A stretch of DNA of 36,545 bases from an uncultured Bacteroidota bacterium (lineage in GTDB: Bacteria > Bacteroidota > Bacteroidia > Flavobacteriales > UBA7312): contig CACHMF010000014.1 of the NCBI GenBank assembly GCA_902580855.1, positions 1 through 36,545 on the forward strand, written 5' to 3'. Within the stretch, counting starts at the first letter, position 1. Each line of letters starts with the position of its first letter. Position numbers and translations under genes: made by a program. Below are positions 15,744-23,787 of this stretch, piece by piece. Under the pieces are notes generated by a model, which did not search any database, was not told where the DNA came from, and saw nothing but the letters and a program-made list of their open reading frames with translations.

Positions 15744-17514
15744 ATGGGATATCGTTCGTTACAAGCATGCATAAATGATCTAGAAGAAAATGGCTTTTTA
15801 ATAAGAATAAAGGAAGAAGTAGATCCATATTTAGAAATGTCTGCAATTCAACTTAGAGTCTTCCAAGAAGAAGGGAAAGCAGTATTATTTGAAAATGTAA
15901 AAGGAAGTAAATTTCCGGCTGTTTCCAATTTATTTGGAACTCTTGAACAAAGTAGATTTATTTTTAGAGATACTATTGAAAATGTTAAAAAACTAGTAAG
16001 TCTAAAAGCTGATCCATTATCAGCTTTAAAAAAAACCATGGATTCATTTAAGCGCAATTGCTTCTGCTCGCATGGCACTTCCTAAAAAAGTAAGTTCTCA
16101 TACATTTAAAGAAATACAGATTTCAGATTTACCACAAATACAATGCTGGCCAATGGATGGTGGCGCTTTTATTACCTTACCACAAGTCTATACTGAAGAT
16201 ATCGATTCACCTGGAGTTATGAAGTCTAACCTTGGTATGTATAGAGTTCAACTCAATGGTAACGATTACATTTTGAATCAGGAAATAGGTATGCATTACC
16301 AAATTCATCGAGGAATAGGTGTACATCAATCTAAGTCAAATGCAAGAAATCAACCTCTTAAAGTAAGTATTTTTGTTGGAGGTCCACCTTCTCATACTCT
16401 AGCTGCGGTTATGCCTCTACCTGAGGGTATGAGTGAGTTATCTTTTGCAGGTGTAATGGGAGGGCGAAGATTTCGATATGTTACTGAAGATGGTTATACA
16501 TTGTCTACAGAGGCTGATTTTGTTATTTGTGGCGAGATAAATGCTGATGATGTAAAACCGGAAGGACCGTTTGGTGATCATCTAGGGTATTATAGTTTAA
16601 CTCATGATTTTCCTGTAATGAGAGTACATAAAGTTTATGCAAAGAAGGATGCAATTTGGCCATTTACTGTTGTTGGTAGGCCACCTCAAGAGGATAGTCA
16701 ATTCGGTGCTTTAATTCATGAAATTACTGATAGTATTATTCCTTCAGAAATACCTGGAATAATTGCAGTAAATGCAGTTGATGAAGCAGGTGTTCATCCA
16801 TTACTTTTAGCTATCGGAAGCGAAAGATATACCCCTTATAATCCAGAACGTAAACCACAAGAGTTATTAACTCTATCTAATCATGTTTTAGGTAAAGGTC
16901 AATTAAGTTTAGCAAAATACTTAATGATGGTTGCTCATGAAGATGATCCAAAGTTAAATGTAAATGATAAAGAATCCTTTTTCAAACATTTATTGGAGCG
17001 CATTGATTGGCAAAGAGATATGCATTTTCAAACTCAAACGACCATCGATACACTGGATTATAGTGCATGCGGAGGTATCAACTCAGGATCTAAAGTTGTT
17101 TTTGTCGCAGCGGGTACAAAAAAAAGAGAATTAGCAAACCAAATAGAACATTTTGAATTACCAGTTGGATTTCAAAAAGCACAACTAGTAATTCCTGGAG
17201 TTTTAGTAATTGAAGGAAATGGTGATATTGAAATACTAACAAAAACTAAATTACCTGATGGTATCGCTTTAGTAACTTTAGTCGATGATGCTGATTTTGT
17301 TGCGGAACATTTTCATAATTGGCTTTGGGTAACTTTCACAAGATCTAATCCATCCGATGATATTTCTGGATGGAACGATACTAATATTAACAAACATTGG
17401 GGTTGTGATATTCCTCTGATAGATGCAAGAATAAAAGAACATCATGCACCAGTAATGACAATGCCAGACGAAATTTGGATGAAAGCTGGAGAATTGATCA
17501 AAAAGTATAGATAG
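15744..17514 (+). pseudogene. UbiD-family (de)carboxylase, reading frame interrupted by one extra A in an A8 run at 16028-16035
   Basis: ORF 15744-16085 carries the N-terminus (MGYRSLQACINDLEENGFLIRIKEEVDPYLEM...FPAVSNLFGT), ORF 16072-17514 the rest (GGPPSHTLAAVMPLPEGMSELSFAG, PEGPFGDHLGYY); removing one A gives ALKKPWIHLSAIASARMALPKK with no other stop. Confidence 0.8.
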
Positions 17515-17552: not shown

Positions 17553-17577
17553 AAAACGCAAATCATTCGCGTTTTTT
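17553..17577 (+). terminator. Probable terminator after ubiD (alternatively an operator palindrome for the downstream receptor gene)
   Basis: AAAACGC-AAATCATTC-GCGTTTT then T tract; 23-nt near-perfect palindrome with one mismatched pair. Confidence 0.6.
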
Positions 17578-17618: not shown

Positions 17619-19910
17619 ATGGCTTATTTTTCTACATTTAGTTTACCTGTAAAACAAGTCTTCTTGTTGTTGCTTTTTTTAAAAACAACTACTTTAATTA
17701 AAGCTCAAACTACAGGTATTATAACTGATATTAATAATCAGCCAATTGAAGCAGTTAATGTTTTACTAGTTGATCAAAACTTACTTTTAGAAACCAACTC
17801 TGAAGGTATTTTTATTGTTGATGAGAACATTGAAGAAAATTCAGATATTCAATTTTTTAAGTTTGGTTATTCTACACAGGTATTAAAATATAATTCAGTT
17901 GAAAAAATGAAGATTGTTTTAAAAAATCTTCATGTTGAATTAGATGAGGTTGGGATTATAGAAACTCATAATTTTTTAGGCAATAGTAAATTAACAAATA
18001 TTGAAAAGAAATCCCTAAAAAATAATTTTCTTAATAACAGTTCTATTGTTGAAAATATTATACAGTTAGGTGGAGTAGATATGATATCTTCTGGGCTTGG
18101 AATCCAAAAGATTGTAGTTAGAGGTCTTTCTGGAATGCGTGTTGTTACATATCTAAATGGTATGCAAATAAACAATCAACAATGGGCAAATGATCACGGT
18201 ATTGGCTTTACAGATTTAGGTATTAGTGAAGTTGAATTGATAAAAGGATCAAGTGCTTTAAGATATGGATCAGAAGCAATTGGAGGTTTGTTATATTTTA
18301 AGGACAATCCATTTGTTTATAATAAAAAACCAAAAGCTTATTTTTCTACTAAGTTTGATAATAGTAGTTTTTTAAATAGATCTCAATTTGGTGTCAAACT
18401 GAATAAAAAAGGTATTTATCTAAACTTTGATGCAGAAAATACTATTTCATCAGATTATAGAATGCCAAATGGAACATATTTCTATAATTCAAGATTTAAA
18501 CAAAATTCTTTAAAGTTATCACTTGGTTATCGATTAGGAAAATGGAATAATATATTCAGATTTCAACTACATAATGAGATAACAGGAATACCTGGGCATG
18601 TATGTGAGGGGGATCCAGCTAACGAAAATTTAAATGCACTTATTTCATCAGAATTCGATTTTGAAATAGCTTTTGATGTTGAAAGACCAACACAGTACAT
18701 AAATAATAAACTGTTCATTTATGAATCAAATTTCTTAAAAGAGAATGTCAAATTTGATTTATTTTTAGGTTATTACAATAACAATCTACAGGAATATGAG
18801 AAAGTCACTGTTGCAGCTTTTGACTTGGATTTAGAAAATATACTAATATCTCCAAATATTAGGTATCAACATAAAGATTTCACTTTTAACATAGGTGTAC
18901 AAGGTTTACAGACTAAAAATAAAAATCAAATAACCTCTAGACTTGTACCAGATGCTATTTCTTTAAATTTAGGTACATATTTCATAATGGATTATGAAAA
19001 GAAAAATTTTGGTATAAATGCTGGTTTAAGATATGATAATAAAAATCTTGAGCTTGTTGACGAAACAGCTGATTTTGAAAATATTGACTACATAAAGACT
19101 TTTAACAGTACAAGCTATTCTGCTGGAATATTTTATAAATTATTAGATCATCATTTCCGAATTTCATATTCGGGGGCATATAGAGCACCTCATTTTTCTG
19201 AACTATTTTCTAATGGAGTTCATCATGGAACCAACAGATTTGAAATTGGAGATACCGAATTGGGAATTGAATATGCTAATCAATTAGATTTTAAATATCA
19301 ATGGTCAAATGAGCATTTTGGTATTGTTATTAATCCATTCTCACAATATATTTCTGATTTTATTTCGGTGATCCCTACTGATAGTTTTCATGACTATCGA
19401 ACTTCTACTGGCGCGGTAATTTATTATCCTATATATAATTATATTCAATATGATCTTGTTAACATACGAGGAGTGGAACTAAATCTTCACTACCATCCAC
19501 ACTCATTACATAATTTACACATAGAACAATCATTTTCATTTTTAAATACTGAAAATAAGGATGATGAATTTGGTTTAGCTCTGGTGCCAGCAAACACTAT
19601 TAGAAATCAAATTTTGTATGATTTTCAAAATACTTTATTTGAAAAGTATAAAGTAGATTTTATCTCTTTTCATCATTTGTATAAGTTTAAACAAAATAAT
19701 CATGCTGAATATGAAAGTCCAACAAATTCTTATAATATTTTTAACATACAATTAGGACTAGCCCTAAATGAAAAATTTAAAAGTACTATTGGAATAAATA
19801 ATATACTAAACACTGTTTATACTCCTCACATTTCTAGAGTCCGAACAATTGCAGGTGGTATACCACATCCAGGCAGATCATTTAATATTAACCTTAAATA
19901 TGATTTTTAA
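17619..19910 (+). CDS. TonB-dependent outer-membrane receptor with N-terminal carboxypeptidase-regulatory-like domain; ZnuD-like metal receptor suspected
   Basis: Signal peptide, CarboxypepD_reg-like GIITDINNQPIEAVNVLL, plug VVRGLSGMRVVTYLNGMQI and IKGSSALRYGSEAIGG, terminal Phe barrel end; His-rich SNGVHHGTNRFEIGD and LNLHYHPHSLHNLH. Confidence 0.88.
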   Translation: MAYFSTFSLPVKQVFLLLLFLKTTTLIKAQTTGIITDINNQPIEAVNVLLVDQNLLLETNSEGIFIVDENIEENSDIQFFKFGYSTQVLKYNSVEKMKIVLKNLHVELDEVGIIETHNFLGNSKLTNIEKKSLKNNFLNNSSIVENIIQLGGVDMISSGLGIQKIVVRGLSGMRVVTYLNGMQINNQQWANDHGIGFTDLGISEVELIKGSSALRYGSEAIGGLLYFKDNPFVYNKKPKAYFSTKFDNSSFLNRSQFGVKLNKKGIYLNFDAENTISSDYRMPNGTYFYNSRFKQNSLKLSLGYRLGKWNNIFRFQLHNEITGIPGHVCEGDPANENLNALISSEFDFEIAFDVERPTQYINNKLFIYESNFLKENVKFDLFLGYYNNNLQEYEKVTVAAFDLDLENILISPNIRYQHKDFTFNIGVQGLQTKNKNQITSRLVPDAISLNLGTYFIMDYEKKNFGINAGLRYDNKNLELVDETADFENIDYIKTFNSTSYSAGIFYKLLDHHFRISYSGAYRAPHFSELFSNGVHHGTNRFEIGDTELGIEYANQLDFKYQWSNEHFGIVINPFSQYISDFISVIPTDSFHDYRTSTGAVIYYPIYNYIQYDLVNIRGVELNLHYHPHSLHNLHIEQSFSFLNTENKDDEFGLALVPANTIRNQILYDFQNTLFEKYKVDFISFHHLYKFKQNNHAEYESPTNSYNIFNIQLGLALNEKFKSTIGINNILNTVYTPHISRVRTIAGGIPHPGRSFNINLKYDF

Positions 19911-19938
19911 ATACTCTGATGAGCTTTTATGAAGCGAA

Positions 19939-19955
19939 ATACTCATATTGAGTAT
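19939..19955. promoter_or_regulatory. Perfect inverted repeat ATACTCA-TAT-TGAGTAT upstream of the lipoprotein gene; possible operator or RNA hairpin
   Basis: 7-3-7 palindrome; AATACTC core also present at 19910-19916. Confidence 0.35.
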
Positions 19956-19979
19956 CAGTATTAATTTAATGAAAATAAA

Positions 19980-20294
19980 ATGAAAAAGTCCTTAATTATG
20001 ATGTATGCATTTATTGCTATGTCACTATCTATTACATCATGTTCGGATGACCATGATCATGGCTGTGAAGAATGTCATATTGCATATTTCGTAGATGGTG
20101 TAGAGGTTGCTCAAGGAGAACTTGGTGAATTTTGTGATGAGGCTTTGGAAGATGTTGAAGCTAATGGATACAATTTAGCTGATGACATGGTAGTAGGAGA
20201 CTATACCATTCCTGCAGGTCAATATCCAGCTAATGAAGTTCATTGTGGTGAACATGAAGGCGAACATGATCATGATGATGATCACAATGATTAA
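19980..20294 (+). CDS. Small acidic His/Cys-rich lipoprotein, probable metal-binding protein
   Basis: Lipobox LSITSC then SDDHDHGCEECH; C-terminus HCGEHEGEHDHDDDHND. Confidence 0.8.
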   Translation: MKKSLIMMYAFIAMSLSITSCSDDHDHGCEECHIAYFVDGVEVAQGELGEFCDEALEDVEANGYNLADDMVVGDYTIPAGQYPANEVHCGEHEGEHDHDDDHND

Positions 20295-20312
20295 CGAATC
20301 AAAATTTAAATT

Positions 20313-20342
20313 AAAACAACTGTCTAGGCAGTTGTTTTTTTT
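20313..20342 (+). terminator. Rho-independent terminator between lipoprotein gene and ABC ATPase gene
   Basis: AAAACAACTG-TCTAGG-CAGTTGTTTT followed by T tract. Confidence 0.85.
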
Positions 20343-20362
20343 TATTTTTAAAAAAAAATACT

Positions 20363-20989
20363 GTGCTCAAAACAACTCCTATTTCATTTTCATATGATAA
20401 TATTAATAGTTTTATTTTTCCTGAAATTAGCCTTAGTGATGCAGAGGATTTATTAATACTAGGTAAATCAGGTGTCGGTAAAACAACTTTTATTCAAATT
20501 TTAGCAGGATTATTAAAACCTGATAAAGGATCTATTTCTTTAAACGGTGTAAAATACGCGGATTTATCAATGAAAAAAATGGATGAATTTAGAGGCAAGA
20601 ATATTAGTCTTGTTTTTCAAAAACCATATTTTATAAATAGTATTAATCTAATAGAAAATCTTCTCACTACTTTAAAATTATCTGGAAATGAAGTTGATAA
20701 TAAAAAGTGCGGATATTTATTAGAACAAATTGGCTTGTCTGATAAAAGTTATTCTAAAACATATGAATTAAGTGAAGGTGAAAAACAAAGAGCTTCAATA
20801 GCTATGGCAGTTTGTAAAAATCCAGATTTAATATTAGCAGATGAGCCAACTGCAAGTTTAGATGATGAAAACTGTGATATAATAATTAACTTATTAAAAG
20901 AACAAGCAAAAAATTCTAATTCCAAATTAATTATTATTACTCACGATCAAAGATTGAAAAGTCAATTTAAAAATACCATTAACTTATGA
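20363..20989 (+). CDS. ABC transporter ATP-binding protein, LolD/MacB-like (GTG start)
   Basis: Walker A GKSGVGKTT, signature LSEGEKQRA, Walker B LILADEPTASLD, H-loop IIITHD. Confidence 0.92.
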   Translation: MLKTTPISFSYDNINSFIFPEISLSDAEDLLILGKSGVGKTTFIQILAGLLKPDKGSISLNGVKYADLSMKKMDEFRGKNISLVFQKPYFINSINLIENLLTTLKLSGNEVDNKKCGYLLEQIGLSDKSYSKTYELSEGEKQRASIAMAVCKNPDLILADEPTASLDDENCDIIINLLKEQAKNSNSKLIIITHDQRLKSQFKNTINL

Positions 20990-22158
20990 CCATATTTAAG
21001 TTAAGTTGGAGAAATATAGTAGTTAGTCCACTTAATACAATATTAAGCTTGTTACTGATGAGTCTTGGTGTAGGAATAATTTCATTATTGATATTATTAA
21101 ATAATGAAATGAAACAACAGGTAAAAAACAATCTCAAAGAAATTGACATGGTTGTTGGAGCTAAAGGAAGTCCCCTACAATTAATACTTTCTTCCGTTTA
21201 TCATATTGATAATCCAACTGGAAATATTCCTTTAAGTTCAATAGATAAATTAAAAAAGAATAGATTAGTTGATTTAGTAATACCACTATCATATGGTGAT
21301 AGTTACGAAGGATTTAGAATTGTAGGGAGTACTCATGATTATATTGATTTATATAATGCAGAAATTAAAGAAGGAAGAAGTTGGGAAGGAGGTTTTGAAG
21401 TTGTTATTGGAAGTGAGATAGCAAGAATACATAATCTTCAAATCGGTGACAATTTTTATGGATCACATGGATTCAAAAAAGGTGGGCATGTTCATAATAA
21501 TTACGCATATACTGTTGTTGGAATTTTAAATTTTTCCGGCTCCGTTATTGATAATCTAATTCTGACTGATTATCAGAGTGTTTGGAATGTGCACAATAAA
21601 GATGCTCATTCAGAAATGGAAATTACTGCAGCATTATTTAAGTTTAAAAACCCTTCAGCGTTAATTAAACTTCCAAGACAAGTTAATGAAACAACTAATT
21701 TACAAGCAGCTGTTCCTGTTTTTGAAATGAATCGACTTATTAAATTACTAGGAAAAAATATTATTAATCCAATTCAGTTTATAGCTGTAGTTATTATGAT
21801 TGTTTCTGGATTGAGTATTTTTATAAGTTTATATAATTCATTAAAAAGAAGACGTTATGAACTTGCTTTAATGAGAGTTCATGGTGCAAGTCGTTGGCAG
21901 TTAGTTATGTTGATACAATTTGAAACACTTTTTTTATCAGTTTTAGGAGCATTTTTCGGTTTATTGTTGAGTAGATTGAGTATTTATATTTACAGTTTAG
22001 GCAGTGATAACCATATCATAAATAATTTTCCATTGACCTTTGTGGCTGAAGAGTTTTGGCTTTTCCCATCAGCATTATTAATTGGTGTATTTGCTGCAAT
22101 AATTCCTACTTTACAAGCCTATAGAACTAATATCCCTAAATTGTTAACTGATGCATAA
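20986..22158 (+). CDS. ABC transporter permease, FtsX/MacB superfamily
   Basis: Four TM segments with large extracytoplasmic domain; MVVGAKGSPLQLILSSVYHIDNPTGNIPL; C-terminal RRRYELALMRVHGASRWQLVMLI; ATGA overlap with the ATPase gene. Confidence 0.9.
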   Translation: MTIFKLSWRNIVVSPLNTILSLLLMSLGVGIISLLILLNNEMKQQVKNNLKEIDMVVGAKGSPLQLILSSVYHIDNPTGNIPLSSIDKLKKNRLVDLVIPLSYGDSYEGFRIVGSTHDYIDLYNAEIKEGRSWEGGFEVVIGSEIARIHNLQIGDNFYGSHGFKKGGHVHNNYAYTVVGILNFSGSVIDNLILTDYQSVWNVHNKDAHSEMEITAALFKFKNPSALIKLPRQVNETTNLQAAVPVFEMNRLIKLLGKNIINPIQFIAVVIMIVSGLSIFISLYNSLKRRRYELALMRVHGASRWQLVMLIQFETLFLSVLGAFFGLLLSRLSIYIYSLGSDNHIINNFPLTFVAEEFWLFPSALLIGVFAAIIPTLQAYRTNIPKLLTDA

Positions 22159-22582
22159 ATTTTTATTTTTTATTCTTTTATTTTCTGCTAACTTATCTTT
22201 TGCTCAAATCGAAATTACATGGAATGATTTAGAAGATGTAGAATTTGAAGATATATTTTATGATGAGGTTGATGAATTTATAGCATATCCACATTTTGGC
22301 CAAAGTGTTATGAATTTATCAGGTGTTGAAGTTTCACTAACTGGATATATTTTAGCACTTGATCCTGATGAAGGATATTACATTTTATCTAAGGGCCCTT
22401 TCGCATCTTGTTTTTTTTGTGGAGATGGGGGCCCAGAAACGATAGTTGAACTTGAGCTGAAAAATAAGAATCAATATTTTATGATGGATGAGATTGCTAC
22501 TATAAAAGGTGTCTTAAAATTAAATGCAGATGATATATATCAATGTGTATATATTTTACAAAATGCTGAAGTAAGCCGATAA
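22151..22582 (+). CDS. Small secreted protein with CFFC motif, DUF3299-like; translationally coupled to the permease
   Basis: Signal peptide MHKFLFFILLFSANLSFAQ; YPHFGQSVMNLSGVEVSLTGYILALD...KGPFASCFFCGDGGPETIVEL; 8-nt overlap with permease stop. Confidence 0.7.
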   Translation: MHKFLFFILLFSANLSFAQIEITWNDLEDVEFEDIFYDEVDEFIAYPHFGQSVMNLSGVEVSLTGYILALDPDEGYYILSKGPFASCFFCGDGGPETIVELELKNKNQYFMMDEIATIKGVLKLNADDIYQCVYILQNAEVSR

Positions 22583-22626: not shown

Positions 22627-23787
22627 ATGAGGAAGAAGATCTTACTTTTAGGTTCGGGAGAATTAGGCAAAGAATTAGTAATTGCTTTGCAACGTTTGGG
22701 ACAGTATATAGTAGCAGTAGATAACTACATAGATGCTCCGGCTATGCAAGTTGCGCATGAGCATGAAGTCATCAATATGTTAGATGGCGATGCTTTGGAT
22801 GCGGTAGTTGCAAAACATCAACCAGATATTATTGTTCCGGAAGTAGAATCTATCCGAACCGAACGTTTTTATGATTATGAGCAGCAGGGTTACCAAGTAA
22901 TACCTTCTGCTAAAGCTGCTAATTTTACAATGAATCGTAAAGCTATTCGAGATTTGGCAGCGATAGATTTAGGAGTAAGAACAGCCACTTATCATTATGC
23001 TACTTCTTATGAAGAGTTAAAAGCAGGCGTAGAGATTTGCGGTATACCCTGTGTAGTTAAGCCTTTGATGTCGAGCTCTGGTAAGGGGCAGTCAGTGATT
23101 AAATCAGATGCTGATATACAAAAGGCTTGGGATTATGCTATTGAGGGTTCTCGCGGTGACTTGATGGAGGTAATTGTTGAAGAGTTTATCGACTTTGAAT
23201 ACGAAATAACTTTATTGACTTTAACTCAAAATAATAACAACACTTTGTTTTGTCCTCCAATAGGACACAGACAAGAGCGTGGTGATTATCAAGAATCTTG
23301 GCAACCTATGCCTATGTTAGATGCCCGTTTGCAAGAAGCGCAGGATATGGCTGCTAAGGTAACAGCTGCTTTAGGTGGCTCGGGTATCTGGGGAGTGGAG
23401 TTCTTTATCGCAAAGGATTGTGTTTACTTTTCAGAGTTGTCGCCAAGGCCGCACGATACGGGGATGGTAACTTTAGTAAACACACAAAACTATTCTGAGT
23501 TTGAATTACATGCCCGTGCCATTTTAGGGATTCCTGTGCATCAGATTTTTTTACTACAAAATGGTGCTAGTGCCGTAGTTTTGGCATCAGAAACAGCTGA
23601 AGGTTTCCCAGATTTTAAAGGCTTAGACAAAGCAGCGGCTATTCCTAATACAGATTTTAAAATTTTTGGCAAGCCGAGTACGCGTCCCTATAGAAGAATG
23701 GCGATATCACTTGCCTATGGAGATGATGAGGTTAGCGCTTTGGTAGATAAAGCCAAGGAGGTAGCTAGCTGTATAAAGATAGCTTAA
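22627..23787 (+). CDS. purT: Formate-dependent phosphoribosylglycinamide formyltransferase
   Basis: [30 protein letters not shown]-grasp [42 protein letters not shown]. Confidence 0.95.

Follow-up and report, generated by a model that had tools for sequence, protein, structure and literature searches.

The stretch examined here raises a question of function: do five consecutive genes of an uncultured member of the Flavobacteriales form a locus for acquiring zinc, and by what route would the metal then travel inward? The window (contig CACHMF010000014.1 of assembly GCA_902580855.1, the whole 36,545-bp stretch that was analysed) belongs to a genome of 1.34 Mb that is 75% complete, and the genes lie on its plus strand at 17619-22582. 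A sequence-only reading of the window had proposed capture and trafficking of a metal, possibly zinc, and our analysis supports it in its main points. A Zur-type zinc-starvation locus appears quite likely as the best explanation of the whole; the part of it that concerns zinc, Zur and kinship with the Zrg systems is very likely, as judged from sequence comparison, and the predicted uptake of zinc across the outer membrane by the receptor under Zur control is well supported. The features of the locus are the following.

17556-17572 (core 17558-17570), unstranded: candidate Zur operator ACGCAAATCATTCGCGT in the receptor promoter
17619-19910, plus strand: ZnuD-like TonB-dependent receptor gene (763 aa)
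19980-20294, plus strand: small His/Cys lipoprotein gene (104 aa)
20313-20338, plus strand: intrinsic terminator-like hairpin between the lipoprotein and ATPase genes
20363-20989, plus strand: ATP-binding cassette (ABC) ATPase of LolD/MacB type, Zrg-like (208 aa, GTG start)
20986-22158, plus strand: FtsX/MacB-type permease, a relative of the Zrg permease (390 aa)
22151-22582, plus strand: secreted CFFC protein, a divergent relative of DUF3299 proteins (PA4066/ZrgE) (143 aa)

The open reading frames (ORFs) lie exactly where the sequence-only reading had placed them. All five are judged to be real genes: the last three (ATPase, permease and CFFC) overlap, and close homologues exist elsewhere for every one of the five. 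Pfam recognizes a TonB plug and barrel, ABC_tran (PF00005, 7e-28 for the ATPase) and MacB_PCD plus FtsX in the window proteins. The sister genome G060 (public metagenome-assembled genome contig PAYR01000037) carries the same genes at about 75-92% identity, with its receptor gene divided over two contigs.

The ZnuD-like receptor and its candidate operator

When a profile of the receptor family is compared with solved structures, ZnuD of Neisseria meningitidis (4rdr) ranks first (7.4e-53), followed by the copper receptor OprC (5e-28) and the heme receptor PhuR (1e-24). The ligands of the buried zinc site of ZnuD (D99, H100, E340, and H499) align with the conserved D192, H193, E392, and H535 of the window receptor. 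The site has been printed once as D90/H100/E340/H499 (PMC4557270); we read the printed D90 as D99 because chain position 99, beside H100, is Asp and position 90 is Thr. The GIPxH start of loop 3 is also kept, with H241, H243, and D246 of the first His/Asp cluster of ZnuD aligning with H327, C329, and D332; this cluster is partly preserved, and the second cluster of the loop is absent. The window receptor differs from ZnuD also in an extra N-terminal carboxypeptidase-like domain (Pfam), in its pairing with a small lipoprotein, and in scoring far below the NCBIfam ZnuD cut-off (NF038289, 81.7 bits against 950). The parallel with ZnuD drawn from the sequence alone holds, ZnuD being the best structural relative with its zinc ligands kept; a grouping with non-metal TonB-dependent transporters did not emerge from the comparison with solved structures.

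For the receptor, the best homologue has a Fur-family (Zur-type) gene no more than 1 kb away in 22 of 49 genomes, against an expectation of 0.18. This count overstates independent events because the genomes are related, and the 11 genera represented are the safer figure. The same reservation applies to the ABC unit, which has a Fur-family gene at a distance of 2 kb or less in 10 of 67 genomes (0.34 expected); in 4 genomes strong COG0523 GTPase genes occur no more than 3 kb from the permease. The adjoining regulators align best with Escherichia coli Zur (9.4e-21, with the best PerR- or Fur-named entry at about 2e-14) and score below the NCBIfam Zur cut-off. The window's own genome has its Zur-type gene on a different contig (C6), arranged back to back with merC. 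Taking this genome and its relatives together, a MerC-domain gene adjoins the Zur-type gene in L130 (4836-5294), L047, L115, L035, L036, and L052.

A 13-bp palindrome, GCAAATCATTYGC, is common to the receptor promoter (17558-17570) and the merC/zur gap of the same genome. A genome-wide search, made by pattern only, finds six matches to GCRANTNANTYGC in the 1.34 Mb and none to the reversed-pattern control; two of the six are intergenic, namely those in the receptor promoter and the merC/zur gap, and the other four fall inside long ORFs. The G060 receptor promoter has a palindrome at the same place with changed core bases (GCAAGTCAATTGC). Relatives' loci totaling 254 kb contain 22 exact GCAAN5TTGC sites, and 18 of these fall within promoters of receptor, zur, merC, or ABC genes, where 0.42 would be expected; the figure is approximate, some promoter boundaries having been drawn after the sites were seen. 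In relatives the operator also stands in front of ABC or zur-ABC units; in G022 the palindrome is 142 bp upstream of the ATPase gene with no zur gene near. The Zur-type regulator and the shared operator tie these genes together and support the zinc reading of the locus.

The lipoprotein, the probable transcription units and neighboring genes

A homologue of the lipoprotein gene stands directly 3' of the receptor in all 14 genomes whose receptor shares at least about 38% identity. An alignment of 13 homologues reveals a common lipid-anchor Cys, CxxCH, FC, and HC motifs and a C-terminal His; the invariant residues are C29, C32, H33, C52, H88, C89, and H96 plus the lipid Cys21. No Pfam or NCBIfam family exceeds its cut-off for this protein, searches returned neither a sequence match nor a fold match in the PDB, and its structure model has low confidence outside the core. 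The lipoprotein is classed here as a new family that accompanies the ZnuD-like receptor. Its CxxCH motif is likelier a metal site than a heme c site, because the protein adjoins Zur-linked receptors and has additional conserved Cys and His residues; that it would bind zinc is a guess from composition and context.

The hairpin at 20313-20338 (folding free energy -15.4 kcal/mol, z -4.1) is also a hit in a terminator scan. G060 has a hairpin of different sequence at the equivalent position, and in G145 a hairpin is located 3' of the lipoprotein gene. Because of this terminator-like element the locus probably comprises two transcription units, one with receptor and lipoprotein and the other with the ABC pair and DUF3299-like protein; the hairpin, like the fact that the two modules move independently of each other, argues against a single five-gene operon. 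Conservation of the neighborhood across Flavobacteriales, which the sequence-only reading had named as a check, gives a mixed picture: both modules are widely conserved, and the exact five-gene order is seen only in the window's own genus. In G145 the receptor, lipoprotein, MerC, Zur, ATPase, permease, and CFFC protein are encoded within one stretch.

Other genes recur beside these modules. In family f8 the gene of a DUF4625 lipoprotein (PF15418, confirmed for L125) separates the Zur-type gene from that of the ZnuD-like receptor, a placement that suggests a zinc role for DUF4625; the genes in this position are listed here.

L125 6057-6857: DUF4625-position lipoprotein, family f8
L126 6063-6848: DUF4625-position lipoprotein, family f8
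L127 4171-5019: DUF4625-position lipoprotein, family f8

Short His-rich secreted proteins precede the receptor in several genomes (L113 4494-4877, L114 6587-6976, and L131 6126-6482), the one in L113 matching no Pfam family. GTP cyclohydrolase I-like genes, recognized by eye, occur near ABC or receptor genes (upstream of the ATPase in L052; L124 9494-10093); folE paralogues belong to Zur regulons elsewhere. Within the window, purT starts at 22627, downstream of the CFFC gene, and a UbiD-like decarboxylase gene at 15744-17514 is broken up into two ORFs that overlap and differ in frame (15744-16085 and 16072-17514), reflecting either a genomic frameshift or an assembly error.

The ABC pair, its CFFC partner and the Zrg systems

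A search of 298 Flavobacteriales genomes identifies a permease homologue in 68, the weakest of which (G157) is an ordinary MacB locus. The gene neighborhood was read in 40 homologous ABC loci: the ATPase gene precedes the permease gene in every one, a CFFC gene lies closely 3' of the permease in all but two (38 of 40), and the three genes adjoin in nearly all, a second CFFC paralogue being frequent. A search of plasmid records matches the permease to Phaeobacter and Sulfitobacter genes located between those for ZrgA (DUF2796) and a DUF3299 protein, and the match to the Phaeobacter Zrg permease (L133) is full length (26% identity, 1e-42). In the permease alignment, the histidines H161 and H203 are conserved in the Phaeobacter/Sulfitobacter, Deinococcus, Thermus, and 36 of 36 Flavobacteriales rows; two true MacB proteins lack them. 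Directly after H203 many relatives have a His-rich insertion, which in the G244 permease (L072 4305-5780; 47 His in 491 aa) spans about 100 residues. A simple swap between the lipoprotein and this His loop was rejected, as G145 has both and the window only the lipoprotein. The Deinococcus and Thermus plasmid homologues (L134 and L135) lie near an alkaline phosphatase gene, with no annotated ZrgA or DUF3299 gene.

The CFFC protein exceeds no Pfam cut-off, and a direct profile search of its family against PDB sequences gave nothing useful. Its AlphaFold2 model (mean predicted local distance difference test score, pLDDT, 89) has a single PDB fold match under 1e-3, which is PA4066 (4hsp, 1.6e-4), and the family profile aligns end to end with a Phaeobacter DUF3299 protein (6e-4). 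Matches to the DUF3299 hidden Markov model in relatives fall mostly on CFFC genes, one over the cut-off and the others sub-threshold. The predicted fold and the profile alignment mark the CFFC protein as a divergent member of DUF3299, as its suggested likeness to PA4066 had implied; its family has an invariant CFFCG motif and a nearly invariant GPE. In many loci (among them L040, L044, L058, L060, L069, and, in Sulfitobacter, L140) the permease gene is followed by a tandem pair of DUF3299-like genes, whose products perhaps form a heterodimer.

The sequence-only reading had drawn a parallel with the zinc-responsive loci PA4063-PA4066 of Pseudomonas aeruginosa and zrg of V. cholerae; the Zrg systems compared here are ZrgABCDE of Vibrio, PA4063-PA4066, and the Phaeobacter plasmid copy L133. 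The parallel stands for the permease and the DUF3299 partner, which are homologous, and fails for ZrgA itself (PF10986), which is over the cut-off in none of the 67 Flavobacteriales genomes. In both types of system a DUF3299 protein comes after the split MacB-type ATPase and permease; the permease histidines are shared as well, and so is a Fur/Zur-family regulator that neighbors several loci. They differ in that the flavobacterial protein has a CxxC motif in place of the DUF3299 CIHxPPPP motif, that flavobacterial loci often have a His-rich permease loop or two tandem DUF3299-like genes, and that in some genomes the receptor and new lipoprotein lie alongside. The link of Zrg to zinc starvation is known from Vibrio: the zrg genes, zrgE encoding the DUF3299 protein, are induced 75- to 206-fold in zinc-poor V. 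parahaemolyticus (PMC9817125). Because ZrgA is missing, we file the locus as a Zrg-like variant and not as a Zrg member.

Alternative roles and the route across the inner membrane

Several points weigh against a zinc-starvation locus under Zur control. There is no operator in the window's 68-bp gap before the ABC unit, which lies behind the terminator-like hairpin, so that zinc control of this unit is shown in relatives only and is inferred for the window. The highest NCBIfam score of the receptor is for a heme-receptor subfamily (TonB-hemin), with ZnuD after it, and no import path is known for MacB-fold pairs. PA4063-PA4066 have moreover been argued to export cobalt-pyochelin and not to import zinc (PMC11481552). 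Taken at face value, the NCBIfam ranking would make the protein a heme or hemoglobin receptor and the locus a matter of iron. All these scores are far below cut-off, however, ZnuD itself was formerly misannotated as a heme receptor (PMC4557270), the acidic ZnuD-site ligands D192 and E392 are kept, and the adjoining regulator is Zur-like rather than Fur-like, so that a role in heme uptake is very improbable. About as improbable is it that the pair lies here by chance, as an exporter of LolCDE or MacB type with no relation to metals. The pair does share with such exporters its ATPase type and generic FtsX and MacB-core domains, but it has no MacA or TolC partner, and its permease misses all LolC/E and MacB cut-offs by far (40.5 bits against 362 and 13.9 against 966). 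It has instead the full-length match to the Zrg permease with the Zrg-specific H161 and H203, linkage to Zur-type and COG0523 genes, and a DUF3299 partner that adjoins in nearly all loci. A grouping with lipoprotein or peptide exporters is thus not what the comparison returned, and the proposed kinship with PA4063-PA4066 is upheld.

The remaining alternatives accept zinc starvation and differ in what the ABC pair does. It is unlikely that pair and DUF3299 protein export a metallophore, a cobalt complex, or a zinc-binding peptide during zinc starvation, with the receptor retrieving the loaded complex. The MacB fold would suit export, deletion of PA4065 raises cellular cobalt through pyochelin (PMC11481552), and the receptor alone could handle a chelate; yet, G157 excepted, no MacA/TolC or biosynthesis genes (as recognized by eye) stand beside the trio in the 40 loci, the permease has conserved or inserted histidines on its periplasmic side, and a V. 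cholerae znuA mutant needs zrgA for growth at low zinc (PMC9820375). Somewhat less unlikely, though still doubtful, is a true zinc importer across the inner membrane in which the lipoprotein or the permease's own His loop replaces ZrgA. Zrg has been described as an importer in Vibrio (PMC9820375), and in the two locus-carrying families nearest the window 19 of 20 genomes have no permease of the ABC-3 (ZnuB) type. Against this, four-helix MacB/FtsX folds lack a known central import path, and the genome has two ZIP carriers that could perform the inner-membrane step. Because ZIP transporters are present in 20 of 20 genomes of these families, an inner-membrane zinc route other than the ABC pair is predicted to exist. 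Mutual exclusion of the pair and ABC-3 permeases was rejected for the 298 Flavobacteriales genomes; the two co-occur in many genomes of family f8, and overall the pair does not replace ABC-3.

The mechanism that we favor, tentatively, is a relay by the ABC pair. The ZnuD-like receptor, its promoter carrying the candidate Zur operator also found between merC and zur, would take Zn2+ through the outer membrane. At the receptor's periplasmic mouth the lipoprotein, as a putative periplasmic or surface carrier, may bind zinc through its CxxCH, FC, HC, and terminal His positions before passing it on. The Zrg-type MacB-fold pair would work with the periplasmic OB-fold DUF3299 protein, and its ATP-driven periplasmic domain (H161 and H203; the His-rich loop in relatives) may strip or relay zinc from carriers; zinc would then enter the cytoplasm via the pair itself or one of the two ZIP transporters. 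A complete Zur-controlled route of this kind that dispenses with ZnuABC and ZrgA, from receptor to CxxCH lipoprotein to MacB-fold relay with its DUF3299 partner, is likewise a possibility that we put forward with reserve.

Zrg systems have been studied in Vibrio and Pseudomonas, and the field is split between import of zinc and export of a metal chelate as the task of the MacB-type pair. No paper on Zrg in Bacteroidota was found in the open-access literature searched. Nature offers an experiment on this question in the Flavobacteriales, where a widespread version of the system does without ZrgA and occurs in lineages that have no ZnuB-type permease; the core that is always kept together consists of the ATPase, the permease with its histidines, and the DUF3299 protein. 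The locus also gives a predicted Zur operator for this flavobacterial group and an orphan lipoprotein family that is a candidate zinc binder, and it points to a possible zinc role for the DUF4625 and MerC neighbors.

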